A stretch of DNA of 64,000 bases, taken from Salvelinus alpinus. Its lineage: Eukaryota > Chordata > Actinopteri > Salmoniformes > Salmonidae. The stretch spans positions 17,249,038 to 17,313,037 of the forward strand of contig NC_092098.1 in assembly GCF_045679555.1 (NCBI RefSeq), in the 5' to 3' direction. Below, one piece after another: positions 25,085-51,515 of the stretch. Position numbers and translations under genes: made by a program. Position 1 is the stretch's first letter, and the number at the start of each line of letters is the position of its first letter. The notes under the pieces were generated by a model. The model ran no database searches. It was not told the origin of the DNA and worked only from the letters and a program-made list of their open reading frames with translations.

Positions 25085-25243
25085 GACACTCTCTTGTCGT
25101 GATGTGTGTGTTGTCCTATATTTCTATTTTATTTTTAATCCCAGCCCCCGCAGGAGGCCTTATGTCTTTTGGTAGTCCGTCATTGTAAATAAGAATTTGT
25201 TCATAACTGACTTGCCTAGTTAAATAAAGGTTAAATAAATAAA
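25085..25243 (+). mobile_element. L2-type LINE 3' tail
   Basis: CTCTCTTGTCGTGATG is followed by CCCAGCCCCCGCAGGAGGCC and the tail AATAAGAATTTGTTC...GTTAAATAAAGG. The same order appears reversed at 38452-38600. It is only the terminal piece of the element. Confidence 0.7.
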
Positions 25244-25416
25244 TTAGCTATCTGTGAAGGATGAGGAGCTATCTCTGACAGTTTGCCTTCACATGACGAT
25301 ATAACAACCTACCAGCATCAGACTGAGGTACATCAGGTAGGCCAAAACAATCTGAGAGAACTTTTTATTTGTTTTACTTTTATCGTGTATTTATTGCAGG
25401 ATATGTACACAATATT

Positions 25417-25714
25417 CACTGAGAGTATAAAACATTAGGAACACAAGGTGTCAAGCGTTCCGAACGCACAACCATATTCCGTTTAAAGGCACCTAAATAT
25501 TTTGTCTTGCATAATCACCCACTGAATGACACACACACAATCCATGTCTCAAGTTTCTCAAGGCATAGAGATCCTTCTTTTACCTGTCGCCTCCCCTTCA
25601 TCCACACTGATTGAAGTGGATTTAACAGGTGATATCAATAAGGGATCATAGACTGACCAGGTGAAAGCTATCTCATGGAAAGAGCAGGTATTCCTAATGT
25701 TTGTACACTCAGTG
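25417..25714. mobile_element. Short non-autonomous DNA element, internally deleted copy
   Basis: The ends CACTGAGAGTATAAAACATT and CTAATGTTTGTACACTCAGTG are inverted repeats shared with the longer copy at 46371-46851. The body matches that copy at CACACAATCCATGTCTCAAG and AACAGGTGATATCAATAAGG. It is non-coding. Confidence 0.75.
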
Positions 25715-25940
25715 CTGTATATAAATCAAACATTAAAATGGCCTTGTAAAGCTCTTATTCATTGAGCCATTGTTTATGAGGTGGTTGGCAAGAATGTTTT
25801 CTATAGATGATCTTTATATACCCATGCCCAAATCATCTCTACAGTCTGCTGGTTGTACAGAATCACAAACTCCCAACGCATGCAATGTATAAAATGTAAT
25901 CCAAATTAAATTATAGAGAGAGTACTTTAATCCACATTAT

Positions 25941-26165
25941 GGGCTCCCGAGTGGTGCAGTGGTTTAAGGCACTGCATCTTAGTGCTAGAGGCGTCACTAC
26001 AGACCCTGGTTCGATTCCAGGCTGTATCACAACCGGCCGTGATTGGGAGTCCCATAGGGCGGCACACAATTGGTACAGGTTTGGCCGGGGTAGGCCGTCA
26101 TTGTAAATAAAAATGTGTTCTTAATTGACTTGCCTAGTTAAATAACGGTTAAATAAATAAATAAA
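25941..26165 (+). mobile_element. tRNA-derived SINE, full length
   Basis: GGGCTCCCGAGTGGTGCAGT head, CTGGTTCGATTCCAGG B box, ACAACCGGCCGTGATTGGG body and the LINE-like tail ending (AAAT)n. It is the best-preserved copy of this SINE type in the window. Confidence 0.85.
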
Positions 26166-26487
26166 AATTAATTATGTAGTCTGGATATTGTCATTGGAAA
26201 GCAACACAGCTTCAGTCTGGAGCCTGAGTTTGTGACTATTTCTTCTCTTGTTTGCTCCTGACTGTATTTGCCAGTCCACAAAGGTCTTATCTAATTCAGT
26301 TACAAGGTAGAACCAAACGGGATATATTATGTATACTCCAGTTATCTGGTTTTATTAACGTAAAGACTTGTTATGCTGTTATGTGCAAGCACTTCAACCA
26401 GAGCGATACTAAGATCATGGAATGGATGTCTGTTCTGTTGATCTCATCTGTAGGTTTTTGTTGAGAAGTCACTTTTTATTTACTCAG

Positions 26488-26570
26488 TGTTGGAGTCTGC
26501 TCAGGCCTTCCTCTCACAATGTGCCACTGTGGATCAGAAGACAGCAAAGGAAGTAGGCAGGATATGGCAA
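26488..26570 (+). pseudogene. drp2: drp2 exon relic: spectrin-like N-terminal part
   Basis: After an acceptor (TTTACTCAG) the frame reads VLESAQAFLSQ, matching human DRP2 SVLESAQAFLSQHPFEELEE, then diverges. No clear donor is seen at the end. It is the most upstream piece I can assign. Confidence 0.75.
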
Positions 26571-28153
26571 AACCAATAATCAGATCGTTAAGTCAAGAAA
26601 TGAGCAGTACTGGTGCGTGGGTAAAATCACTGGTGAAGCCAAGTCAGTAAAAAAAGGCATATTACATGTTGTGTGTTGTGATAATTGCGTTGTTTGCTCT
26701 ATAACCCGTTAAGTCATATGCCTTGTGACTGTGATATACTGTATCCGAGACAATAGGAAGACACAGTGGCAGAAACAATTCAACCACACCTTTGCTTCAT
26801 CACAAAACCGGAGAGCAACCTCTGTCCGGTGAAGTCCACAAAGCATATTGCATGTAACAAACAGTTACATGACCTACAGCATGGTCAAGCCAATTAATGT
26901 TTCCGACATTTTCGGACTGCTAAACAACTGTTGATTTGGAACCATGGAGAGTTACCTCAAGTTGCAAAGAAAACAGGAGCTGCCTTCACTATTCCAGCAC
27001 CATTTCAACATCAACATTTTACATCATCAAATCACCTATGCTTAGTCTAATACAGTGATAACTAAAAGATACAAAAAATGATTTAGTCCCAATCAACTTA
27101 AGCTAAATATGATGTGGCTGTCCATGGTTCTGATTTCTGTGTGTGTGTGTGCATGTGAGTGTGTGCACAAGCAGACAAAACATTTACCCTACTTGTTGAG
27201 AAACGCCAATCCTCTTCTCTTTCATGTTGCAGTAACGGTCTATGACTCTGTCATACAGTAAACGGTCTATGACTCTTATTTTTTGTTGTCCAAGACTAAA
27301 ATGTTAGCTTGCTAGCCTAACTTCCTTTCATGGGAACATTAGCCAGTTAACATTAGCCTTCTACATCTAGCTACATATTGAACTTCCATCCTCTCAGGCA
27401 AGGGTCGCAATGTATGAAATTCATGGTTGAATCAGAATCACCATTATAATTATTGGCCAGTACGCAGAATTAAGTAAAACCACAAGTCCAAATCACTATC
27501 TCCATCCATGGCTAATTTAGGAAAGGGCCAATTGTAGCTAGCTAGCTAGCCACCAGAGAACAACAAAACAACGAGATGCAACAATTCAAGTTGTTTCTGT
27601 CAATGACGTATTGCTCTCGAAGGGATGTGATTGGAGTGAAGCCAAATCCAAACTGGCTTCCCTTGACACTTTTATTTTTGGTGCGCCAGGACCATTCACA
27701 GCTGAACTCACTCAGTTATTTTATACTTTGTTTATCAAGGGAGGCCAAATGCTCGCTGGCTTCCCTTACGTTTAATGCCACCCGTAGCATTAATGTCATA
27801 TTCTTTTTGACCAGACCGCATCAGATAGATGGCCTACACATGCAGAGACAGAGGGGTGCTGTTTTGCTCGCTCGAATGCTTTCTCTAGTGGGATACATTC
27901 AGCCTCTTGCGAATTTAAGGAAAATTATGAAACACAGAGAGACAAAAGATTAATTATTTTATATGTTTTATTTTTCTTGGTCAGTTTTTTGGAGAAGCTT
28001 GGCTTCCCTTGGAATCCATGAATACACACCACTGGGAATGAGTTATGTGTTCCTGGTTGGGAAGAAAATGCTTATCACATAATTAGCTAGATCCATTGTC
28101 ATTGACTCTGCAGTGAGATCTGCCCCTCCTGTTCCTCTGCCTCATCTCTGTAG

Positions 28154-28364
28154 ATGTGAGTCCTCAGCAGCAGAGTACCGGTAGCTGGGTGTCGAGGCAG
28201 GCTGCAGTGGCTGCAGACATGTGGGAGAGAGTGATGTCACGCAGTGTCCAGCGCCACAAACACATGCAGTGTACACAGAGCTGCACTGGGTAGGGAGGAG
28301 CTGTTCCTGGACATAGAGCAGCCTGAAGGGGTGCAGGAGGGCTGGGGGCCCATAGGAGCCTAAC
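28154..28364 (+). pseudogene. drp2: drp2 exon relic: spectrin-repeat exon
   Basis: After CTGTAG the frame reads VSPQQQSTGSWVSRQAAVAA and DMWERVMSRSVQRHKHM, matching human SPKQRIQNLSRFVWKQATVA and SELWEKLTARCVDQHRHI. A later block in another frame, EQPEGVQEGWGPIG, matches SQAEGVRATWEPIG. The frame changes between these blocks and a TAG occurs, so the exon is broken. Confidence 0.88.
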
Positions 28365-28547
28365 CTTTTAAAGTGAGTTGATATGCTTCAAATGCTTAAA
28401 GGAGCTATATGTAGTATTTTTGCATTGTAATTTCTGAAAATGGCCTTCATATATCTGCAGTAATAGTGGAATGATAATGTTTCTCTATGTTTTTTCACCC
28501 CAAAATTTAGGGGGGCCCACATAGCTTGGCCTTAAAGACGTAACATA

Positions 28548-28956
28548 GTAAACGTAAATCTGTGACACTCAAATTAGTATTATATGTTAGGTATGGTTAC
28601 ATAAGACAGAAGGTTACTTAAGCCAAAAATGAAAATCCTTTCATGTGTGGAGGTTGGTCGGGGAGGATGGGTGGGCGTACAACGCGAACGTCTAGCAACC
28701 CAAAGGTTGCGTGTTCGAATCTCATCACGGACAACTTCAGCAATTTATCTAATTAGCAACTTTGCAACTACTTACTACTTTTTAATAACTACTTAGCATG
28801 TTAACTAACCCTTCCCCTAACCTTAACCCCAAACCTGAACTTTAACCCATAACCCCTAGCCTAGCCAACGTTAGCCAACTAGCTAACGTTAGCCACAACA
28901 AATTGGAATTCGTAACATATCATACTAATTTAAGTGTCACAGATTTACGTTTACAA
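28548..28956. mobile_element. Inverted-repeat element with an internal tRNA-like head
   Basis: Arms 28548-28593 and 28909-28956 are reverse complements over about 46 bases with few differences (GTAAACGTAAATCTGTGACA on the left). Between them lies a tRNA-like part (CTAGCAACCCAAAGGTTGCG, then TGTTCGAATCTC as B box) and a CCCTAACC-type stretch. It looks like a DNA element that carries, or was built with, a tRNA-derived sequence. It sits between drp2 exon relics. Confidence 0.6.
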
Positions 28957-29115
28957 TATTGGCCCAGGTTGTGTCCAGGTTGGCCCACACAAAATTGCAT
29001 TAAGATTGTGCAGCCTTCCTATTGGTCAACAAAAGACGGTCCATCTCTGGTTGTCAAATTGGAAGGCTGCACCCTTCCTCTCTTCCATCAGCATCAATCA
29101 GAGGTGTGGTTAAGC

Positions 29116-29505
29116 ACAATCATCAATGGCAGAAATTACACTGCCACTACCTGGTTGCTAAAATTCTATCATGTTTGCCTAATTTCAGTTTGTGACAAAA
29201 GCAAAAAATGTCTGAGAGAAATGCTGTGTAGAGAATCATTGTATCATCTAAATTGCTGTGAAATATCTTTTCAATAACAAAAAATAGCGTACTTTCAGCT
29301 GTTTGAAGCTGGTGTACAAAACTGAAACGAAAAAGACACAGAAATCGCCCTACCTGTTTGCATTGTTCACCTAATTTTAGTTTGTGACAAAACAAGCAAT
29401 TTATAATGTAGAGAGTACCATCTAAAATCGCTGTGAAACATATTTTCCATAATGAAAAATATTGTTTGAAGCTGGTGGACAAAACCGAAACTAAGAGGCT
29501 CAAAA
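29116..29505. mobile_element. Two adjacent partial copies of a MITE
   Basis: The blocks 29126-29330 and 29352-29505 repeat each other: GCTGTTTGAAGCTGGTGTAC against TTGTTTGAAGCTGGTGGAC, and TTTTCAATAAC against TTTTCCATAATG. Both match the element at 49726-50075 downstream of rpl36a. It is non-coding. Confidence 0.65.
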
Positions 29506-29671
29506 GTGGGGAGGGGATGGTGAGTAAATCCAGGAGGGGGGAAGGTTGTTTAGATTCAGCATAAGTGTTGTTGCAATTCGTCCAGCTTCAACAATGTTTT
29601 ATTTTTTATTTAACTTGTATTTAACTAGGCAAGTCAACAAGGGGGAAGCATCTTAGAAATAGTTCCTTTAA

Positions 29672-29760
29672 TGCAGGGGTTCTCAAACCTTTTGGGGCCG
29701 GGGACCTGTTTTGTGATGGCAAATTCCTCAGGGACCCCCTCATAATCAGAACACAACAGG
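29672..29760 (+). mobile_element. hAT-like element terminus
   Basis: GCAGGGGTTCTCAAACCTTT followed by GGGGCCGGGGACC resembles the common vertebrate hAT 5' end CAGNGGTTCTCAAACTTT. Only this end is recognisable, and it abuts the drp2 exon region. Confidence 0.5.
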
Positions 29761-29971
29761 TGAGATTAAAAATAGCATACAAGGAGTTTTACTATGACTC
29801 CGGCAGTGCATGGCCGGACGAACCAAGTCTCGGGCCCAGGGAAAGAACATTGCCTCTGCAATTCTACAGAGTTTGTCATGTAGCAGAGATGTTTTGTTGT
29901 TGCAGCTTTAAAGCTAATATCTTGCCAATCTTAGAGATGTGTGTGCTGCAGTGTTTGTTTCCCTCTTGCAG

Positions 29972-30050
29972 GAGTCCACTGAGGAGAGGCTGAGGCAGTT
30001 GCAGGAGGTCCACAGACACCTTGGACCCAGGTCCCAGCATTGATTTGCCA
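29972..30050 (+). pseudogene. drp2: drp2 exon relic: end of spectrin repeat
   Basis: After CTCTTGCAG the frame reads ESTEERLRQLQEVHRHLGPR then SQH and a TGA, against human SVSERLKQLQDAHRDFGPGS then QHFL. The stop replaces the residue after SQH. Confidence 0.9.
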
Positions 30051-30141
30051 TGCTTTGTGCAAAGCCTTGATCTCCTGGTTAAATATGTCATGCTACATAG
30101 CTGTGCTTGCTTGATTTACATTGCTGTTTGTTTTATTTTAG

Positions 30142-30196
30142 GTTGAGTGCAGATTCCATGGGAACGTGCCATATCGCCCAACAAAGTGCCATACTA
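30142..30196 (+). pseudogene. drp2: drp2 WW-domain exon, 5' half (left of the Tc1 insertion)
   Basis: After TTTATTTTAG the reading is VQIPWERAISPNKVPY and the first two bases of the next Tyr codon, matching human VQVPWERAISPNKVPYY. The first WW tryptophan (PWERA) is kept. The sequence is cut at the TA of the second Tyr codon by the Tc1 at 30197. Confidence 0.95.
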
Positions 30197-31761
30197 CAGT
30201 CGTGGCCAAAAGTTTTGAGAATGACACATATTTATTTTCACAAAGTCTGCTGCCTCAGTTTGTATGATGGCAATTTGGATATACTCCAGAATGTTATGAA
30301 GAGTGATCAGATGAATTGCAAATAATTGCAAAGTCCCTCTTTGCTATGCAAATGAACTGAATCCCCAAAAAACATTTCTACTGCATTTCAGCCCTGCCAC
30401 AAAATGACCAGCTGACATCATGTCAGTGTTTCTCTCGTTAACACAGGTGTGAGTGTTGACGAGGATAAGGCTGGAGATCACTCTGTCATGCTGATTGAGT
30501 TCGAATAACAGACTGGAAGCTTCAAAAGGAGAGTGGTGCTTGGAATCATTGTTCTTCCTCTGTCAACCATGGTTAACTGCAAGGAAACACGTGCCATCAT
30601 CATTGCTTTGCACAAAAAGGGCTTCACAGGCAAGGATATTGCTGCCAGTAAGATTGCACCTAAATCAACCATTTATCGGATCATCAAGAACTTCAAGGAG
30701 CGCGGTTCAATTGTTGTGAAGAAGGCTTCAGGGCGCCCAAGAAAGTCCAGCAAGCGCCAGGACCGTCTCCTAAAGTTGATTCAGCTGCAGGATCGGGGCA
30801 CCACCAGTACAGAGCTTGATAAGGAATGGCAGCAGGCAGGTGTGAGTGCATCTGTACGCACAGTGAGGCAAAGACTTTTGGAGGATGGCCTGGTGTCAAG
30901 AAGGGCAACAAAGAAGCCACTTCTCTCCAGGAAAAACATCAGGGACAGACTGATATTCTGCAAAAGGTACAGGGATTGGACTGCTGAGGACTGGGGTAAA
31001 GTCATTTTCTCTGATGAATCCCCTTTCCGATTGTTTGGGGCATCCGGAAAAAAGCTTGTCCGGAGAAGACAAGGTGAGCGCTACCATCAGTCCTGTGTCA
31101 TGCCAACAGTAAAGCATCCTGAGACCATTCATGTGTGGGGTTACTTCTCAGCCAAGGGAGTGGGCTCACTCACAATTTTGCCTAAGAACACAGCCATGAA
31201 TAAAGAATGGTACCAACACATCCTCCGAGAGCAACTTCTCCCTACCATCCAGGAACAGTTTGGTGACGAACAATGCCTTTTCCAGCATTATGGAGCAACT
31301 TGCCATAAGGCAAAAGTGATAACTAAGTGGCTCGGGGAACAAAACATCGATATTTTGGGTCCATGGCCAGGAAACTCCCCAAACCTTAATCCCATTGAGA
31401 ACTTGTGGTCAATCCTCAAGAGGCGGGTGGACAAACAAAAACCCACAAATTCTGACAAACTCCAAGCATTGATTATGCAAGAATGGGCTGCCATCAGTCA
31501 GAATGTGGCCCAGAAGTTAATTGACAGCATGCCTGGGTGGATTGCAGAGGTCTTGAAAAAGAAGGGTCAACACTGCAAATATTTACTCTTTGCATCAACT
31601 TCATGTAATTGTCAATTAAAGCCTTTGACACTTATGAAATGCTTGTAATTATACTTCAGTATTCCATAGTAACATCTGACAAAAGTATCTAAAGACACTG
31701 AAGCAGCAAACTTTGTGAAAATTAATATTTGTGTCATTTTCAAAACTTTTGGCCACGACTG
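30197..31761 (+). mobile_element. Tc1-like transposon inserted in the drp2 WW exon
   Basis: The perfect outer ends CAGTCGTGGCCAAAAGTTTT and AAAACTTTTGGCCACGACTG are flanked by TA on both sides (30195-30196 and 31762-31763). It is 1,565 bases long with a single long transposase frame. The exon text continues on both sides of it, so the insertion point is known to the base. Confidence 0.97.
30569..31648 (+). CDS. Tc1 transposase, open but with catalytic Asp replaced
   Basis: It would bind the element's inverted repeats and cut and paste it. The frame is open from upstream (30533); the ATG at 30569 (MVNCKETRAIIIALHKKGFT) matches where such proteins start, giving 359 residues against a usual 340-350. 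The N-terminal half holds two helix-turn-helix units with a GRPRKSS hook between them. The DDE nuclease follows: first Asp in IFSDES and the Glu in NPIENLW. The second block reads FQHYGATCH where relatives have D in place of Y, so the metal-binding Asp is lost. SPNLNP also stands for the usual SPDLNP. The protein should not be able to catalyse transposition. Confidence 0.9.
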   Translation: MVNCKETRAIIIALHKKGFTGKDIAASKIAPKSTIYRIIKNFKERGSIVVKKASGRPRKSSKRQDRLLKLIQLQDRGTTSTELDKEWQQAGVSASVRTVRQRLLEDGLVSRRATKKPLLSRKNIRDRLIFCKRYRDWTAEDWGKVIFSDESPFRLFGASGKKLVRRRQGERYHQSCVMPTVKHPETIHVWGYFSAKGVGSLTILPKNTAMNKEWYQHILREQLLPTIQEQFGDEQCLFQHYGATCHKAKVITKWLGEQNIDILGPWPGNSPNLNPIENLWSILKRRVDKQKPTNSDKLQALIMQEWAAISQNVAQKLIDSMPGWIAEVLKKKGQHCKYLLFASTSCNCQLKPLTLMKCL

Positions 31762-31836
31762 TACATTAAGTAAGCCATCAAACCCAGACCACTTGTTGAG
31801 ATCATCCTCAGATGAAGGTGCTCTACCAGGCAGTTG
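31762..31836 (+). pseudogene. drp2: drp2 WW-domain exon, 3' half (right of the Tc1 insertion)
   Basis: The reading resumes with HQTQTTC then TGA, then DHPQMKVLYQAV and a GTATGA donor at 31837. Human has [21 protein letters not shown]. The second WW tryptophan is the TGA stop, and about five extra bases (GTAAG) just after the Tc1 shift the frame. Confidence 0.93.
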
Positions 31837-32006
31837 GTATGATTGGATTATTACAGTATAACAAGAATGTGTGATATACAGTGTCTAAAATGAAGAGACA
31901 GAAATTAGCTCTTTGTCACTGCAAAAAATCTGGATACACCTGAAGTGAGGACACTCCATCATGTGGTGCTGATCTAAACATGTCCATATTTCCCTCCTTT
32001 CCCCAG

Positions 32007-32083
32007 CTGATCTGAACAACACCAGGTTCTCTGCCTATCGAACAATACATGAAGCTGCGACGTGTACAACAGGGCTTGAGATG
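32007..32083 (+). pseudogene. drp2: drp2 exon relic after the WW domain
   Basis: After TTTCCCCAG it reads DLNNTRFSAYRT, then in a shifted frame MKLRRVQQGLR; human is DLNNIKFSAYRTAMKLRRVQ. A small insertion between the two blocks breaks the frame. The phase joins the preceding WW exon. Confidence 0.92.
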
Positions 32084-32099
32084 TGTAATTTAGTAATTT

Positions 32100-32262
32100 A
32101 ATTTTGACGTTCTTATCCAGAGCGACTTACAGTAGCAATTAGGGTTAAGTGCCTTGCTCAAGGACACATCAACAGATTTTTCACCTAGTCGCCTCAGGGA
32201 TTCAAACCAGCAACCTTTCAGTTACTGTCCCAACGCTCTTAACCGCTAGGCTACCTGGCTCC
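32100..32262 (-). mobile_element. tRNA-derived SINE, reverse
   Basis: On the minus strand the head is GGTAGCCTAGCGGTTAAGAG, the B box TGGTTTGAATCCC, and the tail TAAGTCGCTCTGGATAAGAA, a tail type found in many fish SINEs. It begins within 20 bases of the preceding drp2 exon relic. Confidence 0.75.
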
Positions 32263-32267
32263 CCTAC

Positions 32268-32501
32268 TTCTGAGTATTTTATATATTGCATTACACTGGG
32301 CTGACTCTGTACTGGCACCCCCCTGTATATATTGTTATTTTTTACTGCTCCTCTTTAATTACTTGTTACCTTTATCTCTTATTCTTATCTGTGTTTTTTT
32401 GAAACTGCACTGCCGGTTAGGGGCTCGTAAGTAAGCATTTCACTGTAAGGTGAACCTGTTGTATTCGGCGCATGTGACTAATAAAATGTGATCTGATTTG
32501 A
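32268..32501 (+). mobile_element. LINE 3' tail, Rex1/CR1-like family
   Basis: It contains GTAAGCATTTCACTGTAAGG and CGCATGTGACTAATAAAATG, the same 3' end as the LINEs at 22705-23716 and 58051-60655. It has no coding part. Confidence 0.8.
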
Positions 32502-32616
32502 ACTACACTCCATTGTATTTTGTAACAAGATACTTTCGAAAGCTGTACTTTAGTATTTTCAAAATACAAAATCATTTTCAAAACCATTTCATTATAACGG
32601 TTCACAATTTTGTGGC

Positions 32617-32981
32617 TGTCACGACTTCCGCCGAAGTTGGTTCCTCCCCTTGTTCAGGCGGCGGTTGGCGTCACCGGTCTTCTAGCCATCGCCGATCCAC
32701 CTTTAATTTTCCATTTGTTTTGTCTTGTTTTCCCCCCACACCTGGTTTACATTCCCTCATTACTTGTTGTGTATTTAACCCTCTGTTCCCCCCATGTCTG
32801 TGAGTGAAATTGTTTGTTGTAAAGTGCTTGTGCACTCTGACTGGTTCGCAACGTGTTATTTTTGTACCCATATTTTGTTGTTCTGGGTGCCGTTGGTTTT
32901 GCATATTAAACTGCTCCGGTTATTACCCAGTTCTGCTCTCCTGCGCCTGACTTCCCTGCAGCCAGTCACGCACCCCTTACA
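32617..32981 (+). mobile_element. Solo LTR, 365 bases
   Basis: It runs from TGTCACGACTTCCGCC to CACGCACCCCTTACA with five-base duplications GTGGC at 32612-32616 and 32982-32986. A second LTR of the same family lies in reverse at 59993-60373. No internal region is present. It is a fossil with clean ends. Confidence 0.88.
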
Positions 32982-33034
32982 GTGGCCTCCTTTCACCCTG
33001 CATTGGTATTAAAAGTCTGATGGCACTATGGTGT

Positions 33035-33208
33035 GATAAGAGCATCTACTAAATGGGTATGTAAAAATTAACAATTGCAAAGCATGCTGAGTATTACTCT
33101 GATGAGCTCTGCCCCAAAACAAGGTCAATGACAATACCCAGTGTGCTTTGCAGTTGTTAATTTTCACATACACATTTACATTTTGTTCATTTAGCAGATG
33201 CTCTTATC
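33035..33208. mobile_element. Fold-back element with SINE-tail-like ends
   Basis: GATAAGAGCATCTACTAAAT begins the left arm, and ATTTAGCAGATGCTCTTATC ends the right. Inside them ATTAACAATTGCAAAGCATG faces GTGCTTTGCAGTTGTTAATT. The arms are about 60-75 bases with a short loop. The outer ends resemble the tail of tRNA SINEs. Confidence 0.6.
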
Positions 33209-33252
33209 CAGAGTGACAGTGCATTCAACTAATGTAGATAAACAACAACATA

Positions 33253-34809
<1,557 letters not shown>

Positions 34810-35022
34810 TATCACAGTCAAAGCAAGTAAGAAGTTTTTGAGAATGTTGTTGATGTTCAGCCGGCTACTTGCAAATGTATTTTCGTATTTTAAAATACAT
34901 GTATTTTAATTAAATACAATACTTTGGTCTTTAGGGTATTTTGTAGTTGTATTTTGCCATTTATGCTCGTCCTTGTCTGTGTTCTATTTCATGTCTAAGG
35001 AGAGGATGTTCTGTTCTGGCAG

Positions 35023-35166
35023 GTGTCTGGTCCTGGTGGATGTGCTGACCAGCAACACCTCAGTGCCCTGCTTCAGGAGCTCATCCAGGTCCCACGGCAG
35101 CTAGGAGAGGTGGCCGCCTTCGGAGGGAGAAATGTGGAGCCCAGCGTGGCCAGCTGCTTTCGCATG
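35023..35166 (+). pseudogene. drp2: drp2 exon relic, intact reading
   Basis: It is bounded by TCTGGCAG and ATG|GTGAGC, 144 bases, fully open. [20 protein letters not shown] then [19 protein letters not shown] matches human [20 protein letters not shown] closely. It precedes the ZZ finger exon. Alone it looks functional; the exons around it show it is not. Confidence 0.96.
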
Positions 35167-36339
35167 GTGAGCTAGGATTTACGTTGGTCAAAATAAGCAT
35201 TAGCTATTACTGTTAAGTATAGCCCAAGGTTTTCCCCATGTTAGTCGCTGTTATAGTACAATATTACAAGAGGAAGTGTAGAAATAAAATCCAATCTGTG
35301 TTAAAAACTCTCATTGGATTATCTCCAATCTTTATGTAATGTTATTGATTTTCAAAATGGATTTGAACATTCTTTATGCACTTGTAAGGTGTACTTTAAT
35401 CCATTATGTGAGCAGCAGACTAATGTCAAGAGAGGATTTGAGGCTATTTATACATCTTTGAGAGTAGCTCTGAGACCATGATGGAGAGATGCAGATGCCT
35501 AAACACTGTGAGTTCTATTAAACTGAGCATCTAATTTATGATGACAGTTATGCTAACTCAAACCCTATAATGTCAAACATTCATGATGAATACGGTGAGA
35601 CATCAATGCCTTGTTTCTGATAGACTCTTATAGATTAGTCAGTCATATGTCTGCTGCCTCAGTCTCATCTTGACGTGTCTGAGATTAGTGTACACTAAAT
35701 TGTTTGAAGGGGTCATGGCATTTTAATGGGCTGTGTTATCCGAAAGGGCTAATCACCACAGGCTCTCTCTCTGACCTTGTGCTGTCTGTCAGTTTGCTTG
35801 TGTGGGCTTTACAGGGGCACGTATGTGTACATTAGGCGTATTGTGTACGTTGTGTATTTGTACATGCACACACGTTTTGCATGTCTGTTTGTGTAGTAAA
35901 TATGTGATTTGTTCTCTGAAAGATACCCAGCAGTCTCTTACTCCAGGAGCATTGGGATGCTACTATAGTAGACAGGCTTTATCAGGCTCCACAGCTGGAT
36001 TAGAACACACCACTGGAACCCAAATGGGAATAGCAACTTAATTATGTCATTTCTCTCATGTAGACCCTTAAGAAATTAAACATGGAGTGCCTTTCAAACC
36101 CCTTTAATGAGAATTGTGTCCAGTAATGAACATTAGTGACTCATGAGAATTTTCTTTAACATTTCTCATCATCAATTTCATGACTTATTTCTGGAAATAA
36201 ATGACTGAGACTAGAGTAATTTACTACAGCTCTACTAAGTCAGTCTCTGAAGGGAATGCCAGAGAGCATATGCCCTGCCTCTGGATCTCTGGTGGTCTCA
36301 TGGTCCTCCTCTCCTCTCTTCCCCACCATGTGGCTATAG

Positions 36340-36507
36340 GCTCCTGGGAAAACCTCCATCCAGCTGTCCCACTTCCTGGAGTGGATGAGCCTGGAGCTCC
36401 AGTCCGTGTTGTGGCTGTCTGTGCTGCAGCGAGTGGTCCAGGCAGAGAACGCCTAACACCAGGCCAAGTGCTCCATCTGGAAACAGTTTCCCATCAAGAG
36501 CTTTAGA
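36340..36507 (+). pseudogene. drp2: drp2 exon relic: start of ZZ zinc finger
   Basis: After TGGCTATAG it reads LSHFLEWMSLELQSVLWLSV, then LQRVVQAENA, a TAA, and HQAKCSIWKQFPIKSFR. Human is QFLEWVNLEPQSMVWLAVLH, then RVTIAEQVKHQTKCSICRQC. The stop takes the place of a Lys codon. The second and third ZZ cysteines are Trp and Phe. The donor reads ATGAGC where GTGAGC is expected. Confidence 0.95.
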
Positions 36508-36528
36508 TGAGCCACATGGCCTCCACAG

Positions 36529-36640
36529 GTGAACGCTATTTCAACCATATAGGGAATGTCAAAGCTGCTTCCTGTCCTGGCGTACTACCAAGGGCAAGGC
36601 TTTAATTTACCCCATCATTGAGTACTACAGTACACCCCAG
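36529..36640 (+). pseudogene. drp2: drp2 exon relic: rest of ZZ zinc finger
   Basis: After CCTCCACAG the 5' part is scrambled, then CQSCFLSWRTTKGKALIYPI and IEYYSTPQ match human CQTCFLTGRASKGNKLHYPI and MEYYTPT. Confidence 0.9.
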
Positions 36641-36949
36641 TAAAAAGCGTAAATCATAGTCCACAGACGCTGAGATACGATAGTCTCGTGTCCCATCTGA
36701 GACCACCAAAGTGGGGGATGTACATCCACACAATTCCTAGCCAACGCGTCTATGGTACGTGTCCTCTTCATTTGAATGTGTTGACAGTTGGTGAAATTGC
36801 TTGAGCTGTGCTGAGAATTCGAAAAGTATGAAAGACAACGGTCCAATGTTGTAGAACACTGCTGTGCGTACGCATACACATTTTGGACTCTGATAAACCC
36901 ATAAGACTAATTTCATTATGCCATTAGTATTTTTTATGTCACTCTCAGC

Positions 36950-38320
36950 TAGAGGTCGACCGATTAATCTGAATGGCCGATTAATTAGGGCCGATTTCAA
37001 GTTTTCATAACAATCAGAAATCGGTATTTTTGGGTGCGGATTTGCCGTTTGTTTGTTTAAAAAAAAGAAAGTTTTTTGTTTGTTTTTTTTCTCCAATTTT
37101 TTTAAATTTTTAAACATTTTTTTATACCTTTATTTAATTAGGCAACTCAGTTAAGAACATATTCTTATTTTCAAGGACGGCCTAGGAACGGTGGGTTAAC
37201 TGCCTCGTTCAGGGGCAGAACGACAGATTTTCACCTTGTCAGCTCGGGGGATCCATTCTTGCAACCTTACAGTTAACTAGTCCAACGCAATAACGACCTG
37301 CCTCTCTCTCGTTGCACTCCACAAGGAGACTGCCTGTTACGCAAATGCAGTAAGCCAAGGTAAGTTGCTAGCTAGCATTAAACTTATCTTATAAAAAACA
37401 ATCAATCATAATCACTAGTTAACTACACATGGTTGATGATATTACTAGATATTATCTAGCGTGTCCTGCGTTGCATATAATCTGACTGAGCATACAAGTA
37501 TCTAAGTATCTGACTGAGCGGTGGTAGGCAGAAACAGGCGTGTAAACATTCATTCAAACAGCACTTTCGTGCGTTTTGCCAGGAGCTCTTTGTTGTGCGT
37601 CAAGCATTGCGATGTTTATGACTTCAAACCTATCAACTCCCGAGATGAGGCTGGTGTAACCGAAGTGAAATGGCTAGCTAGTTAGCACGCGCTAATAGCG
37701 TTTCAAACGTCACTCGCTCTGAGCCTTCTAGTAGTTGTTCCCCTTGCTCTGCATGGGTAACGCTGCTTCGATGGTGGCTGTAGTCGTTGTGTTCCTGGTT
37801 CGAGCCCAGGGAGGAGCGAGTTGAGGGACGGAAGCTATACTGTTACACTGGAAATACTAAAGTGCCTATAAGAACATCTAATAGTCAAAGGTTAATGAAA
37901 TACAAATGGTATAGAGGGAAATAGTCCTATAATTCCTATAACTACAACCTAAAACTTCTTACCTGGGAATATTGAAGACTCATGTTAAAAGGAACCACCA
38001 GCTTTCATATGTTCTCATGTTCTGAGCAAGGAACTGAAACGTTAGCTTTCTTACATGGCACATATTGCACTTTTACTTTCTTCTCCAACACTTTGTTTTT
38101 GCATTATTTAAACCAAATTGAACATGTTTCAGTATTTACTTGAGGCTAAATTGATTTTATTGATGTATTATATTAAGTTAAAATAAGTGTTCATTCAGTA
38201 TTGTTGTAATTGTCATTATTACAAATACATTTTAAAAATCGTCCGATTAATCGGTATCGACTTTTTTGGTCCTCCAATAATCGGTATTGGCGTTGAAAAA
38301 TCATAATCGGTCGACCTCTA
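36950..38320 (+). mobile_element. hAT-type non-autonomous element
   Basis: It starts TAGAGGTCGACCGATTAATC and ends ATAATCGGTCGACCTCTA, with perfect 8-base duplications CTCTCAGC at 36942-36949 and 38321-38328. It carries the internal SINE (37125-37312, reverse) and a B-box-like GGTTCGAGCCC at 37797-37807. It lacks about 450 internal bases found in the copy at 55414. No transposase is present. Confidence 0.9.
37125..37312 (-). mobile_element. tRNA-headed SINE inside the hAT element
   Basis: In reverse, the tail ACTGAGTTGCCTAATTAAAT and the body GGCAGTTAACCCACCGTTCC match the SINE at 8650-8836. It sits at the same place in the host element as in the other two SINE-bearing copies. Confidence 0.75.
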
Positions 38321-38451
38321 CTCTCAGCCCATCCCAGCCACTCTCAGCCCATCCCACCTATCACCATAGACCACCCTCGTTTGATTTCCATGTGTCATAT
38401 ATTTTTCAATTGTGTTGTTTTACATACATTGAACCTTTCTAATCGTATATT

Positions 38452-38935
38452 TCTTATTTTTATTTAAAATTTATTTAACTAGGCAAGTCAGTTAAGAACA
38501 AATTTTTATTTACAATGACGGCCTACCAAAAGGCAAAAGGCCTCCTACGGGGGCTGAGATTAAAAATAAAATCTATATAGGACAAAACACACATCACGAC
38601 AAGAGAGAGCATAGCATGGCAGCAACACATGACAACACATGGCAGCAGCACAACATGGTAGCCCCACAAAACATGGTATAAACATTATTGGGCACAGACA
38701 ACAGCATAAAGGACAAGAAGGTAGAAACAACAATACATCACGCAAAGCAGCCACAACTGTCAGTAAGAGTGTCCATGATTGATTCTTTGAATGAGGAGAT
38801 TAAGATAAAACTGTCCCGTTTGAGTGTTTGTTGCAGCTCGTTCCAGTCGCTAGCTGCAGCAAACTGAAAAGACGATCGACTCAGGGATGTGTGTGCTTTA
38901 GTATCCACAGATTGTAAGCTAAAGATGAAAACCTT
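38452..38935 (-). mobile_element. L2-type LINE 3' fragment, reverse
   Basis: On the minus strand RSSFQFAAASDWNELQQTLK precedes a TGTTG-rich 3' region and the tail AATAAAAATTTGTTCTTAAC. It belongs to the subfamily at 21965-22555. Confidence 0.8.
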
Positions 38936-39120
38936 TTTTTGCAATAAAATGCAAATTAATTATTTAAAAATCATACAATGTGATTTTCTGGATTTTTGTT
39001 TTAGATTCCGTCTCTCACAGTTGAAGTGTACCTATGATAAAAATTACAGAGCTCTACATGCTTTGTAAGTAGGAAAACCTGCAAAATCGGCAGTGTATCA
39101 AATACTTGTTCTCCCCACTG
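38936..39120. mobile_element. Tc1-like terminal inverted repeat fragment
   Basis: It ends AAATACTTGTTCTCCCCACTG followed by TA and shows the long repeat motif ACAATGTGATTTTCTGGATT also seen in the Tc1 at 33253-34809. Only one end remains and it is fused to the LINE fragment at 38935. Confidence 0.75.
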
Positions 39121-39129
39121 TATGTGACA

Positions 39130-40560
39130 TAACTCCACCGTTTCTATTCATAATATCATTAATAAATATAATACAGTTTTAAAATAAAAAATCCATAAAG
39201 AATGTTGTTTTATTAAGCAGTATATTTGAGTTTAACCATAACATTTGCTGTAATATTTGTTCTATCTTTTCTGGAGGATAAAACAGAAATTGTAACCAGC
39301 TTTGTATGGCTTGTTTAAGATGATACTTTAAACAAAATGTAATTTTCAATTAGTCGGAAATTAGAAGTTGTAATCTGTATAAAGACAAAAAGGCAATTTT
39401 TGAACAAATCTACTGGAGAACCATTTTAGGTTTAAGTATAATGTATGTATGAGTGAAGCTTTTAGTGAGAGGTTTAAAGCTTTAATATTTAATCATTTTA
39501 GCCCCCCAAACTCTTATTCATTATATAAATAGGCACGTTTAATTTGTCTGGCTTAGCATTCCAAATAAAAAGAAATATTTTTTGCTCATATGATAAAAGA
39601 AAATTGTCATCTGGTGTAGGCAGTGCCATTAGTAAGTAAGTAAACTGTGATAGGACCAAAGAGTTAATCATTGTGATTTTTCCATAAATAGACAAGTATT
39701 TACCTCTCCACGGTTGCAGAATCTTATCAATTTTTGCAAACTTTCTATTGAAATTGATTGTGATAAGTTGATTTATATTTTTTGAGATGTGAATACCAAG
39801 TATGTCTACTGCACCATCCGCCCATTTTATTGGTAGACTACAAGGTAGTGTAAACACGGTCTTTTAATGATCCAATACGTAATATGGTACACTTGTCATA
39901 ATTAGGTTTTAGTCCAGAAGCTAGAAAAGTGATCAAGATCTTCAATGAGACTGTGCAGGGATCCAGATTGTGGACTTAAGAAAAAACTATAGTCATCAGC
40001 ATACATTGACACTTTTGTTTTTATCCCCTGGATTTCTAACCCCTTGATGTTCTTGTTGGATCAAATTTTAATAGCTAGCGTTTCAATGGCCATAATAAAT
40101 AGATTTGGAGACAACGGACAGCCTTGTTTTACTCCTCTTAAAAGCTCAACACTTTCTGAGAAGTAACCATTATTTACTATTTTACATCTGGGGTTGCTGT
40201 ACATAACTTTAACCCATTGTAATTGAGATTCACTTAAATTAAAGTAATTCAGGCATTTATATATAAATTATAGTCGTACTTTATCAAACACCTTTTCAAA
40301 ATCTGCTTTGAAGACCAGGCCTGGTATATTTGATGTTTCATAATGTTCAATTGTTTCAAGTAATTGTTGTATATTATCTCCAATATATCGTCCATGTAAA
40401 AAAAAAAACTGTCTGATCAAGATGAACAATATCTGGTAAAACCTTTTTTATTTTATGTGCTATGCATTTCGCCAGGAAGTTCGCATCACAACATTGAAGT
40501 GTAAGAGGCATCCAGTTTTTTAAATGGACTGGCTTTTTATACTTACCACCTGGGTTCTGT
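39130..40560 (-). mobile_element. LINE fragment, L1/Tx1-like reverse transcriptase
   Basis: On the minus strand: CKIVNNGYFSESVELLRGVK, QGCPLSPNLFIMAIETLAI, KVSMYADDYSFFLSPQ, and the frame at 39857-39498 with YGKITMINSLVLSQFTYLLM. The order and the YADD box identify a reverse transcriptase of the L1/Tx1 type, distinct from the L2 LINEs. Both ends are missing and several stops occur. Confidence 0.85.
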
Positions 40561-40753
40561 TTTAGTAGTAATGAAATCAGACCTGGTAGGGTACTTGAAA
40601 GTCTACAAGTTCAAATGTACAGCCTGTCTTGGGGGCAGGGAGTGAGGATAATTAGTCCTAAAGCCTGGGAGGTCTTATGTGATGGAACATCCAGAGACTG
40701 TCAGCACAGATTGACACTCCTTATTTTGATAGACATCTCTGTGCTTCTGTCAG

Positions 40754-40819
40754 GTCCAGCTCGTCCCCAAGGATTCCCCTCTCAGACACACACTCCAGAA
40801 TTGAGCACTATACCTGTAG
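40754..40819 (+). pseudogene. drp2: drp2 exon relic
   Basis: Bounded by TTCTGTCAG and TGTAG|GTATGAG, it reads SSSSPRIPLSDTHSRIEHYT, matching human PASSPMWPHADTHSRIEHFA. It is open, 66 bases, and joins in phase to the exon at 41656. Confidence 0.92.
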
Positions 40820-41655
40820 GTATGAGTCAAGAAATAATTTTATAGCATCACCCGCCTGCTGCTGCCCACTAGTTGAGTAGGCTTCACCCCAGGGGTATTG
40901 ATAAGTTGTAACACAGCTGTGAATAAGGCTCAGAGAAGTGAGCCAGCCCTACCAGACAGCACAGGAGAGCACGCTGAAAATCAGCAGGGTCCGCAGAACT
41001 TCATTACCCAGTTTTTATCAGGCAATGACTCCTGCAGACTATACTTTGAACTAACTGGGTTAACATCAGCAGACTGTGCATAGTGAACACTACTTGCATG
41101 CAAAGGGTAGCCCCGGCACCGTTATGTTTACTTCAACAGAGCAAGTCTTAGATCAGCCACGCATCTGTCAGTTTCTTTACTTAAATGTCAGGGGGGAAAG
41201 TTATCTGTAGTAGGCTAACACCTTCATTTTAATTTGTACATTATACATGCATGCAGTCTTTGTCATTATATTCTTCCCTCAGCAGCACTGCCCACAATGT
41301 GCCTTTTCTATGAAATAATCTTCTCCACACAGATGAACATGATGCCACTAATGAGTATGGTGGAGTGGCGTGACTCCTTTGTTTGGGTTTAATCATATTA
41401 AAACATTTGGTCGGGCGTGTCCTCGTTCTCTGCCAGATCATGTTTATAAAATGTAAGCAATGAGTGAAGAAAGCACAAATGTAATTCTGACAAAGAAAGT
41501 GTTTACAGAAAAGCACATAAACCTGACTTAGCAGCAACAGCTAGGGTTTCCCTTTTGTAATGTTAAGACTGCTGGATTTGCACTTCTTGGAATTCCCTCC
41601 CATGACACATTCATTTTACAGTGAACTATGTTTTTACTCTCTGCTTCTGTTCAAG

Positions 41656-41716
41656 ACTCGTTGAGATTACTCGTTGAGATTGAGAACCAGAACTGCTCCT
41701 TCTTCACTGAGAGCCT
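41656..41716 (+). pseudogene. drp2: drp2 exon relic with a 13-base tandem duplication
   Basis: Acceptor TTCAAG, donor CCT|GTGAGT. The 13-mer ACTCGTTGAGATT occurs twice in a row at the exon start, which shifts the frame. The remaining text VEIENQNCSFFTES matches human AEMESQNCSFFNDS. Confidence 0.92.
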
Positions 41717-41838
41717 GTGAGTTTATCATATAAAGCTCTTACGATACGACAAGATGAGACTGTGTTAGAAAACATTAGATTAGCTTCACTCAGGTTTCCT
41801 CACGTCCGCATAGTTCATTCTGTCCTTCCCTCTGTTCT

Positions 41839-41970
41839 GGTTGAGGATCAGTATCTTGACCGCCTGGATCAGGACTCCCTGGCATCCTATGACCATTACC
41901 TGGGTTATACAGGCTGTGAGACCGAGGATGAGCTGCAGAAAACACTGGCCATGCTGTAGAATGAGAACAG
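41839..41970 (+). pseudogene. drp2: drp2 exon relic: start of C-terminal coiled coil
   Basis: VEDQYLDRLDQDSLASYDHY is followed by TEDELQKTLAML, a TAG and NENR, with donor ACAG|GTGAGA. Human has IDEDQYLLRHSS and GELQKILAHLEDENR. The stop sits where Glu is expected. Confidence 0.93.
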
Positions 41971-42049
41971 GTGAGAGGTCACGAACCCTCATGTCCTTTT
42001 CATCTTATGAGTACCAAAGTCAGTCCAATCACACCCAAATAAAAATATT

Positions 42050-42252
42050 TCTGGCATCAGGGCCCAGTTTTTCAATGGTTATCTATCTGGATTTTGCCTA
42101 TCGGATAGGATTAAATGCATAGAAACAGAATGATTAGAACAGACAAATCATTGACTTTAATGGGGACTCCCGTTCGAATCATTCTATTTTTATGCATTTA
42201 ATCCTATCCAATAGGCGGAATTCAGATAGATAACTTTTGATAAACCGGGCCC
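42050..42252. mobile_element. Fold-back MITE with GGGCCC ends
   Basis: The left arm GGGCCCAGTTTTTCAATGGT and further bases to TTAAATGCATAGAAA is mirrored on the right by TTTATGCATTTAATCC to AACCGGGCCC. The arms are about 70 bases with a loop of about 60. It sits in a drp2 intron relic. Target duplication is unclear. Confidence 0.7.
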
Positions 42253-42546
42253 AGAGAATCTAATCATAATGGGTTTACCTCGGATCTAAGAAAGAAAACA
42301 AGTAGGCGGCCAGTACGATGCAGAAAACTTTAGTGAACTATTTACAAATAATATATACATAAAGTAGGAGCCAATCAGCCTATAGTTTACATCAGGACGC
42401 ACAACTGCAACGTGTTTCGAGTACTACAAGAGTCTTCTTCAGGCAGTGTTTTACCTTAGATCTGCCATAATATCAGAGCACAGTTGTAGACATAAAACAC
42501 AAAGTTCCCCGGGAAAAAAGTGTAATTCCCCCCCAAGGTACTGCAG

Positions 42547-42789
42547 GGGGAGTACTGACATCTAGAGTGGCAGCATGCTGAGGCCAGGCCTGACCACATC
42601 TGAGGGTGGGCTCCGTGGAGCAGTAGGACTACCAGAACCAGGCCTTGCTGGCTGGGGCCAGGGACCTGAGGTACCATCAGGGCAGGCTGGAAACCTGCAT
42701 GCAGATCCTGGAGTACCCCAACAAGGAGCTAGAGTCCCAGCTCTACCGGCTCAGGGAGATTCTACAACAGGGAGTCCCAGTCAGAGGAT
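42547..42789 (+). pseudogene. drp2: drp2 exon relic: coiled coil
   Basis: After GTACTGCAG the block LEWQHAEARPDH matches human LKWQHEEA. Later, in a shifted frame, LLAGARDLRYHQGRLETCMQ and ILEYPNKELESQLYRLREIL match LLAEARILRQHKSRLETRMQ and ILEDHNKQLESQLQRLRELL. Two stops and a frame change lie between them. Confidence 0.95.
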
Positions 42790-42871
42790 AGCAGACAGGG
42801 GGATGCCTTGAATGCAGTCCTATCCACATGAAGGTGCATCCTTTTATTTCCTCATATTAGTATATGTTTAG

Positions 42872-42982
42872 AGAGAGAGGATTCCAAGGGCAATGCATCA
42901 ACTGGAACCCCATCATCGGTGTTACAAAGAGACCAGCTGGGGAGCCAGCTAAGCACAGGAGCCAGCAACACAGAACCCCCAG
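42872..42982 (+). pseudogene. drp2: drp2 exon relic: Ser/Gly/Thr-rich linker
   Basis: EDSKGNASTGTPSSVLQRDQ is followed by GASNTEPPG and the donor CAG|GTAACA. Position and composition fit the human ESDGSGSAGSSLASSPQQ linker. The alignment is weak but the order is right. Confidence 0.65.
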
Positions 42983-43083
42983 GTAACATAGTATGCTAGT
43001 TTGATATGAGGATTAACTGTCAAAAGGCATTAGGGGCCTGTCTAAAAGGGAGCCCTCGTGCCTTTGTTTTCCCTCTGTGTAAG

Positions 43084-43150
43084 CATGACCGGCCTCACCC
43101 TGCTCCATCACCTTCAACAGGCCATAGAGCAACTGAAGAACGTCTTTCCC
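43084..43150 (+). pseudogene. drp2: drp2 last exon relic
   Basis: HHLQQAIEQLKNVFPLHG corresponds to human LEDIMEKLRHAFPSV near the C-terminus. The normal stop is not found, because unrelated repeat sequence follows from about 43,150. Confidence 0.75.
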
Positions 43151-43845
43151 TTACACGGAACCCAAACCGGCTGCGCGCGTGCGCCATCGTGCATACATTT
43201 ATTTTGTCCCCCCACACCAAACACGACCATGACACGCAGGTTAAAATATCAAAACAAACTCTGAACCAATTATATTAATTTGGGGACAGGTCGAAAAGTA
43301 TTAAACATTTATGGCAATTTAGCTAGTTAGCTTGCACTTGCTAGCTAATTTGTCCTATTTAGCTAGCTTGCTGTTGCTAGCTAATTTGTCCTGGGATATA
43401 AACATTGAGTTGTTATTTTACCTGAAATGCACAAGGTCCTCTACTCTGCCAATTAATCCACACATAAAATGGTCAACTGAATTGTTTCTAGTCATCTCTC
43501 TTCCTTCTAGGCTTTTCCTTCTCTTGACTTTATATTGCGATTGGCAATTTTCATAAATTAGGTGCATTACCGCCACTGACCTCGTTCGTCTTTCAGTCAC
43601 CTACGTGGGTATAACCAATGAGGAGATGGCACGTGGGTACCTGCTTCTATAAACTAATGAGGAGATGGGAGGCAGGACTTGCAGCGCGATCTGCGTCAGA
43701 AATAGAACTGATTTCTATTTTAGCCCTTGGCAACGCAGGCGCTCGTTGGCGCGCACAAGCAGTGTGGGTGCAATAATTGAATAACATAGATTTCTACATT
43801 TATTTTGCATCACACGCGACGCAAGTGGTGCGGTCAGCCTGTTAG
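43150..43845. repeat. Unclassified interspersed repeat, about 700 bases
   Basis: It begins GGCTGCGCGCGTGCGCC, has a middle with repeated GCTAGCTAATTTGTCCT, and a GC-rich end with GGCGCGCACAAGCAG. I recall this unit as widespread in salmonids but cannot name the class. It replaces the end of the drp2 last exon. No open frame is seen. Confidence 0.45.
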
Positions 43846-51245: not shown

Positions 51246-51515
51246 TCACAGAGTAGCTCGGATGGCTTCATTCCGCAGCACTTTGTAGGTGAGCCAATAG
51301 AAAACATTGAAGCAGAGGAAACTCAGAGGGAACACAGCCCTAGATATGGTGTCGATCCTTTTTGCCCGATCTACAAACTGCCTGCGGATGTCATACAGTG
51401 GGAACCCATGAGGTAAGGCCTGAAAGATTGGGGCATCCATCTCTGGTGGTGCATCGCCTGCTACTCCATAACTATGGAGAAAATAGGCCTGGCTCTGCTC
51501 CACCAGCTCCTGCTC
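51246..51515 (-). CDS. glra4: Glycine receptor alpha subunit, last coding exon (GLRA4-like)
   Basis: This is a partial gene. After the acceptor CTTTCTTAG the exon reads EQELVEQSQAYFLHSYG, then FVDRAKRIDTISRAVFPLSF and LCFNVFYWLTYKVLRNE, ending IRATL with TGA, about 89 codons. The block FVDRAKRID plus the M4 membrane helix is diagnostic of glycine receptor alpha chains. The details (DTISRAVFP, YKVLR) fit GLRA4 best, alpha-2 and alpha-3 less well. Such subunits form glycine-gated chloride channels in the plasma membrane of neurons. Upstream exons (signal peptide, ligand domain, M1-M3) were not found between 51,516 and 64,000, so they lie beyond the window or after a very long intron. Confidence 0.85.
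   Translation of the reverse strand, partial: EQELVEQSQAYFLHSYGVAGDAPPEMDAPIFQALPHGFPLYDIRRQFVDRAKRIDTISRAVFPLSFLCFNVFYWLTYKVLRNEAIRATL

Follow-up and report, generated by a model that had tools for sequence, protein, structure and literature searches.

The window analysed here, a stretch of 64,000 nucleotides of the Salvelinus alpinus genome (C13:17249038-17313037), contains the remains of drp2, a gene of the dystrophin family, a second copy of which lies open on C1. Exon-by-exon alignment to this C1 copy, whose exons are numbered e1 to e20, recovers pieces of 17 of the 20 exons in the same order and on the plus strand, from 25243 to 43153, and 1765 of the 2536 coding bases of C1 have a counterpart in the window. 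The order of the drp2 pieces proposed in the first-pass annotation is confirmed both by protein search and by this alignment, but the range given there (26488-43150) began too late, as the last 92 of the 157 bases of e1 lie upstream of it.

The drp2 remnant and its lesions

The pieces and the transposons found among them are as follows.

25243-43153, plus strand: very probable drp2 pseudogene, with 17 of 20 exons still recognisable by alignment to C1
25243-25336, plus strand: e1, last 92 of 157 bases; 2-bp insertion, TGG changed to TAG
26454-26549, plus strand: e2, 96 of 109 bases; 1-bp deletion and two 6-bp deletions, donor lost
28154-28366, plus strand: e3, 211 of 263 bases; 13-bp deletion among other lesions, no 3' end or donor left
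29972-30059, plus strand: e5; 9-bp insertion, donor lost
30142-30198, plus strand: e6 (WW exon), 57 of 61 bases, ending at a Tc1 element; TCA changed to TGA
30197-31761, plus strand: Tc1-type DNA transposon within e6, flanked by TA on each side; transposase frame 30509-31645 open
31775-31836, plus strand: e7; TGG changed to TGA, preceding e6-e7 intron gone
32007-32082, plus strand: e8; 1-bp insertion
33250-34812, plus strand: second Tc1-type element with 210-nt inverted ends, in the gap of e9 and e10
35010-35166, plus strand: e11 (EF-hand exon); open body, deleted acceptor
36340-36506, plus strand: e12 (EF-hand to first half of ZZ); CAA changed to TAA, donor GT changed to AT
36557-36639, plus strand: e13 (ZZ, second half), 78 of 112 bases; 5-bp insertion, truncated at the 5' end and without acceptor
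40616-40650, plus strand: e14, 35 of 137 bases
40754-40819, plus strand: e15, the only exon free of visible lesions
41656-41716, plus strand: e16; 13-bp insertion at its start
41839-41970, plus strand: e17; acceptor lost, GAG changed to TAG
42537-42770, plus strand: e18 (coiled coil); three stops, 1-bp deletion, neither splice site left
42874-42982, plus strand: e19; 12-bp deletion, acceptor unalignable
43087-43153, plus strand: e20, 67 of 99 bases; 11-bp and 5-bp deletions

No convincing match to e4, e9 or e10 was found in the window (best scores 16.3, 20.2 and 11.7, respectively). The loss of EF-hand exons reported at first pass holds for e9 and e10, and it extends to e4, in the spectrin part, and to the first 101 of the 137 bases of e14. 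Lesions, counted relative to the C1 frame, include nine stops (one each in e1, e6, e7, e12, e13 and e17, and three in e18) and frameshifting indels in nine of the 17 exons (e1, e2, e3, e8, e13, e14, e16, e18 and e20), that of e14 sitting at the last base of the exon. Acceptors are lost or unalignable in eight of the 17 (e1, e11, e13, e14, e17, e18, e19 and e20), as are donors in e2, e3, e5, e6, e12, e14, e18 and e20 (8/17), and the e6-e7 intron, 383 bp long in C1, is deleted apart from its first few bases. This leaves e15 as the sole full-length exon without a stop or indel and with both splice dinucleotides present. The exon-intron structure is kept, with 17 of the 20 exons split by introns and 3383 alignable non-exon bases diverging by 11.7%.

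When the C1 protein was searched against its own genome (2.37 Gb, 928 contigs), with 54 of 134 candidates scored, the window received five matches, with E between 7.3e-24 and 8.0e-12; it also matches Pfam EF-hand_3 (4e-14) and solved dystrophin (1.6e-12). A Pfam scan of the three plus-strand frames, with X placed at stops, returned EF-hand_3, transposase domains and a few weak matches (best 0.0042), and this kind of scan overlooks most of the drp2 pieces.

One exon, e11, which is itself an EF-hand exon, had been described as intact at 35023-35166 with perfect splice sites; this description fails, as the true start lies at about 35010 and the acceptor is deleted. In C1 the exon is entered through gtatgtcag followed by ATCTGTTCTGGCAGGTG, the acceptor-bearing stretch is missing from the window, and the apparent acceptor cag at 35020-35022 (cag/GTG) corresponds to the glutamine codon within ..LFWQVSG.. 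of C1. No stop interrupts the 52 codons of the exon body, and the donor survives. That e11 is still selected is unsupported: its ratio of nonsynonymous to synonymous divergence (dN/dS) to C1, 0.229 against 0.504 for the other exons, comes from 11 changes, and the acceptor is gone. A drp2 intron also contains, at 42057-42255, an 84-nt inverted repeat with arms 86% complementary and 31 nt apart, which is probably a small non-autonomous element.

The duplicate block and the open copy on C1

The duplicate region was located using as bait the nufip2 frame of the window (9456-11213, minus strand; Pfam NUFIP2, E 1.5e-186), which matches C1:94365253-94366984 at 89%. Within a C1 comparison region of 100 kb, considering matches of more than 90 bits, the window is collinear with C1 from about 129 to 53344, the remaining matches being out of order and repeat-like, and collinearity between C1 and C13 starts again outside the window. 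Both nufip2 (compared over residues 9-586) and rpl36a (three exons seen) are open on C1 and on C13, and both of these flanking genes pair the window with C1; rpl36a and the GLRA4-like gene, which had been placed near the drp2 remnant from the outset, are both present. An Rfam search gave no match, and a transfer RNA (tRNA) call by ARAGORN, tRNA-Ser at 25953-26030, more probably marks the head of a short repeat derived from a tRNA, because the surrounding unit is found again in the C1 region at 86%.

The C1 copy of drp2 consists of 20 exons on the minus strand (C1:94330346 to C1:94341820), each preceded by AG and followed by GT, which form one frame of 845 amino acids matching solved dystrophin over residues 3-841 (E 4.4e-262). 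It is the partner sought on the duplicate chromosome, open over 20 exons, and it answers the objection that an intact drp2 might be absent elsewhere in the genome. According to PMC1790709, DRP2 is a dystrophin-branch gene that lacks dystrophin exon 71; the C1 partner likewise has two spectrin repeats, WW, EF-hand, ZZ and coiled coil, without a counterpart of that exon, whereas the window copy, unlike the gene described there, would be incapable of encoding DRP2.

Further drp2-like exons were found, among the candidates scored, at C7:58.21-58.28 Mb and C4:67.38-67.46 Mb, along with weaker matches on C10, C8 and C27, loci which we take to be dystrophin and a pair of utrophin genes. Nine of the 20 exons were fetched from each of C7 and C4, and these are open, with stops only where the match enters an intron. 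Near relatives of the glra4-like gene also occur on C4 and C7 (88-93%), and the additional nufip2 copies are found on C21 and C22 (about 70%), not on C4 or C7.

Neither the C1 nor the window copy appeared among the 22 matches of a ZZ family search, three of which pointed to dystrophin and utrophin-like loci; the finger is divided between exons, and on C1 its last histidine is gone. The suggestion raised by this search, that the genome has no intact drp2, is ruled out by the collinear C1 region and the open 20-exon frame. The same histidine is altered on C7 (..KGKKQLQYPI..) and retained on C4 (..KGKKLHYPI..).

Loss of selection and a proposed order of events

Between C1 and the window copy, drp2 has a synonymous divergence (dS) of 0.173 and a nonsynonymous divergence (dN) of 0.082. 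When C7 and C4 served as outgroups to assign changes to branches, 10 changes at codon positions 1 and 2 fell on C1 and 26 on the window copy (p 0.011), while position 3 had 11 and 9, respectively, and amino-acid changes numbered 7 and 24 of 263. This excess at positions 1 and 2 together with equal change at position 3 indicates that C1 has been constrained and the window copy free. Comparisons among the other drp2-like copies gave dN/dS values of 0.113 (C7-C4), 0.149 (C1-C7) and 0.154 (C1-C4). Faster evolution of the C1 copy relative to C7 or C4 found no support in relative-rate counts (6 vs 6, and 7 vs 4, of 151), although the tree gives C1 and C13 a longer stem. Four duplicate pairs have similar dS, namely drp2 C1-C13 (0.173), nufip2 C1-C13 (0.189), drp2-like C7-C4 (0.225) and utrophin-like C27-C8 (0.208), as expected if one genome doubling produced them all.

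We are highly confident that the window holds an unprocessed drp2 pseudogene derived from whole-genome duplication and decaying in place, its C1 duplicate being open and under selection. Whole-genome duplication would have given drp2 copies on C1 and C13, of which the C13 copy would have lost selection long ago and the C1 copy stayed constrained; the former would then have gathered stop codons and small indels, lost splice sites, exons and introns, and taken in transposons. The loss of one duplicate after genome duplication, as already proposed at first pass, is supported by the open collinear partner and the similar dS of the four pairs, and we infer that the doubling was that of the salmonids (Ss4R). 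Judging from its sequence, the window copy very likely makes no DRP2 protein, and it presumably has no useful transcript.

Several points weigh against this interpretation. The evidence is confined to the DNA sequence of one genome, and the ends of the C1 exons were placed by eye to hold the frame, which makes the AG and GT at 20 exons partly a product of construction. The C1 gene lacks an identified first and last coding exon, so that "open" covers 20 exons only, the donor of its e2 (GTGGGG) is weak, and the final ZZ histidine is absent in its e13 (C1:94334282-94334393; ..KAKALIYPI..). The C1-window dN/dS of 0.476 (bootstrap 0.34-0.68) barely exceeds that of the open nufip2 pair (0.412) and, as this pair is nearly as high, fails by itself to show relaxation. 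The nufip2 gene has remained open in both duplicates despite its high ratio.

The Tc1 element in e6 (1,565 bp, carrying transposase domains) raises the question of what came first. Closing its gap in silico restores the WW-exon stretch ..KVPYYI.., and an insertion that cuts the WW exon so exactly, with TA on each side, would be sufficient alone to disable the gene, the remaining lesions coming after; we nevertheless regard the element as an unlikely killer, given how young it looks against a drp2 divergence of about 9% in exons and 12% in introns. A genome search, with 40 of 3379 candidates scored, returned the window element and 39 near-full-length copies at 96%. Compared with 14 copies, it has 22 private substitutions in 1565 columns, similar to the other copies (15-25 each), although these 14 were best matches and the resulting age is biased downwards. 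The apparent youth of the element is suggested by these few private sites, by the identity of about 96% and by the open transposase frame. A rough clock calculated by hand, with 6.4-8.7% neutral change per lineage since the split, wide error and no error model, would date the loss of selection to about 0.4-0.8, and the Tc1 insertion to about 0.15-0.3, of the way back to the split. Selection thus appears to have been lost before Tc1 arrived, and the element probably came late, as a passenger, rather than killing the gene.

It is very improbable that the surviving exons of the window copy still give rise to a regulatory RNA or a short C-terminal protein product: e15 is lesion-free and GT donors are retained in e7, e8, e11, e13, e16, e17 and e19, but e16 carries a frameshift, a stop and the loss of its acceptor affect e17, three stops interrupt e18, which has neither splice site, and change at codon positions 1 and 2 is raised on the window branch.

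In a FastTree phylogeny of 172 columns, C1 groups with the window copy (0.994) and C7 with C4 (0.863), these four being joined at 1.000 apart from C10, C8 and C27, with branch lengths of 0.134 for the window copy and 0.030 for C1. The names DRP2 and dystrophin/utrophin for these groups are putative and draw on the description in PMC1790709. The C1/C13 and C4/C7 pairs may go back to the two copies left by the older teleost duplication, with a second doubling of each. With two additional drp2-like loci on C4 and C7, the window pieces might be taken for an older copy from the teleost duplication instead of the partner of the C1 gene, but the probability of this is close to nil, the idea being already refuted by collinearity and dS (0.173 for window-C1 vs 1.2-1.35 for C1 to C4 or C7), and the tree grouping and the flanking genes also join the window to C1.

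The glra4-like neighbour and gene loss after duplication

On C13, seven exon pieces of the glra4-like gene were found, all of them open (C13:17323038-17333037; window 51249-51515). On C1 (C1:94323448-94323670 and nearby) 8 bp are deleted from the ligand-binding exon, the exon next but one after it stops matching after 13 residues, and the exon of transmembrane segment 4 has a stop three residues short of the end of the compared piece; for the exon of transmembrane segments 1-3, tblastn at 1e-3 found no match anywhere in the 100 kb, and the best DNA alignment reached 97/171. The two neighbours have opposite fates: drp2 is broken on C13 and open on C1, glra4-like open on C13 and broken on C1. 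This is the likeness to reciprocal loss or divergent resolution, although the classic form of the latter consists of different losses in different lineages, whereas here two neighbours inside one genome are concerned. It is quite improbable that the pattern is non-random, either through diverged regulation of the blocks, each keeping one nervous-system gene, or as a lineage-differing pattern acting as divergent resolution. Of all that was seen at this locus, the reciprocal loss alone is mildly surprising, and it merits a note.

In Atlantic salmon, according to Lien et al. 2016 (PMC8127823), pseudogenised homeologue fragments exist for 56% of 9,162 Ss4R singletons, and the genome has undergone large Tc1-mariner expansions. 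The drp2 case resembles those homeologues in having a broken fragment at the expected collinear site and an open partner on the duplicate chromosome; that survey was genome-wide, whereas drp2 is followed here exon by exon and may be among its cases. A literature search found no report of drp2 loss in salmonids among the results listed, which is not proof of absence.

In conclusion, the loss of drp2 is an ordinary and well-documented kind of gene loss, presumably one more case of the Ss4R type, and it leaves the understanding of the process unchanged. What it offers is an exon-resolved loss after genome doubling in which an open partner, introns serving as neutral yardsticks and a datable transposon are combined in one gene, which allows a testable order of events to be put forward. 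Because the neighbouring gene met the opposite fate, the block is useful as a small test case.

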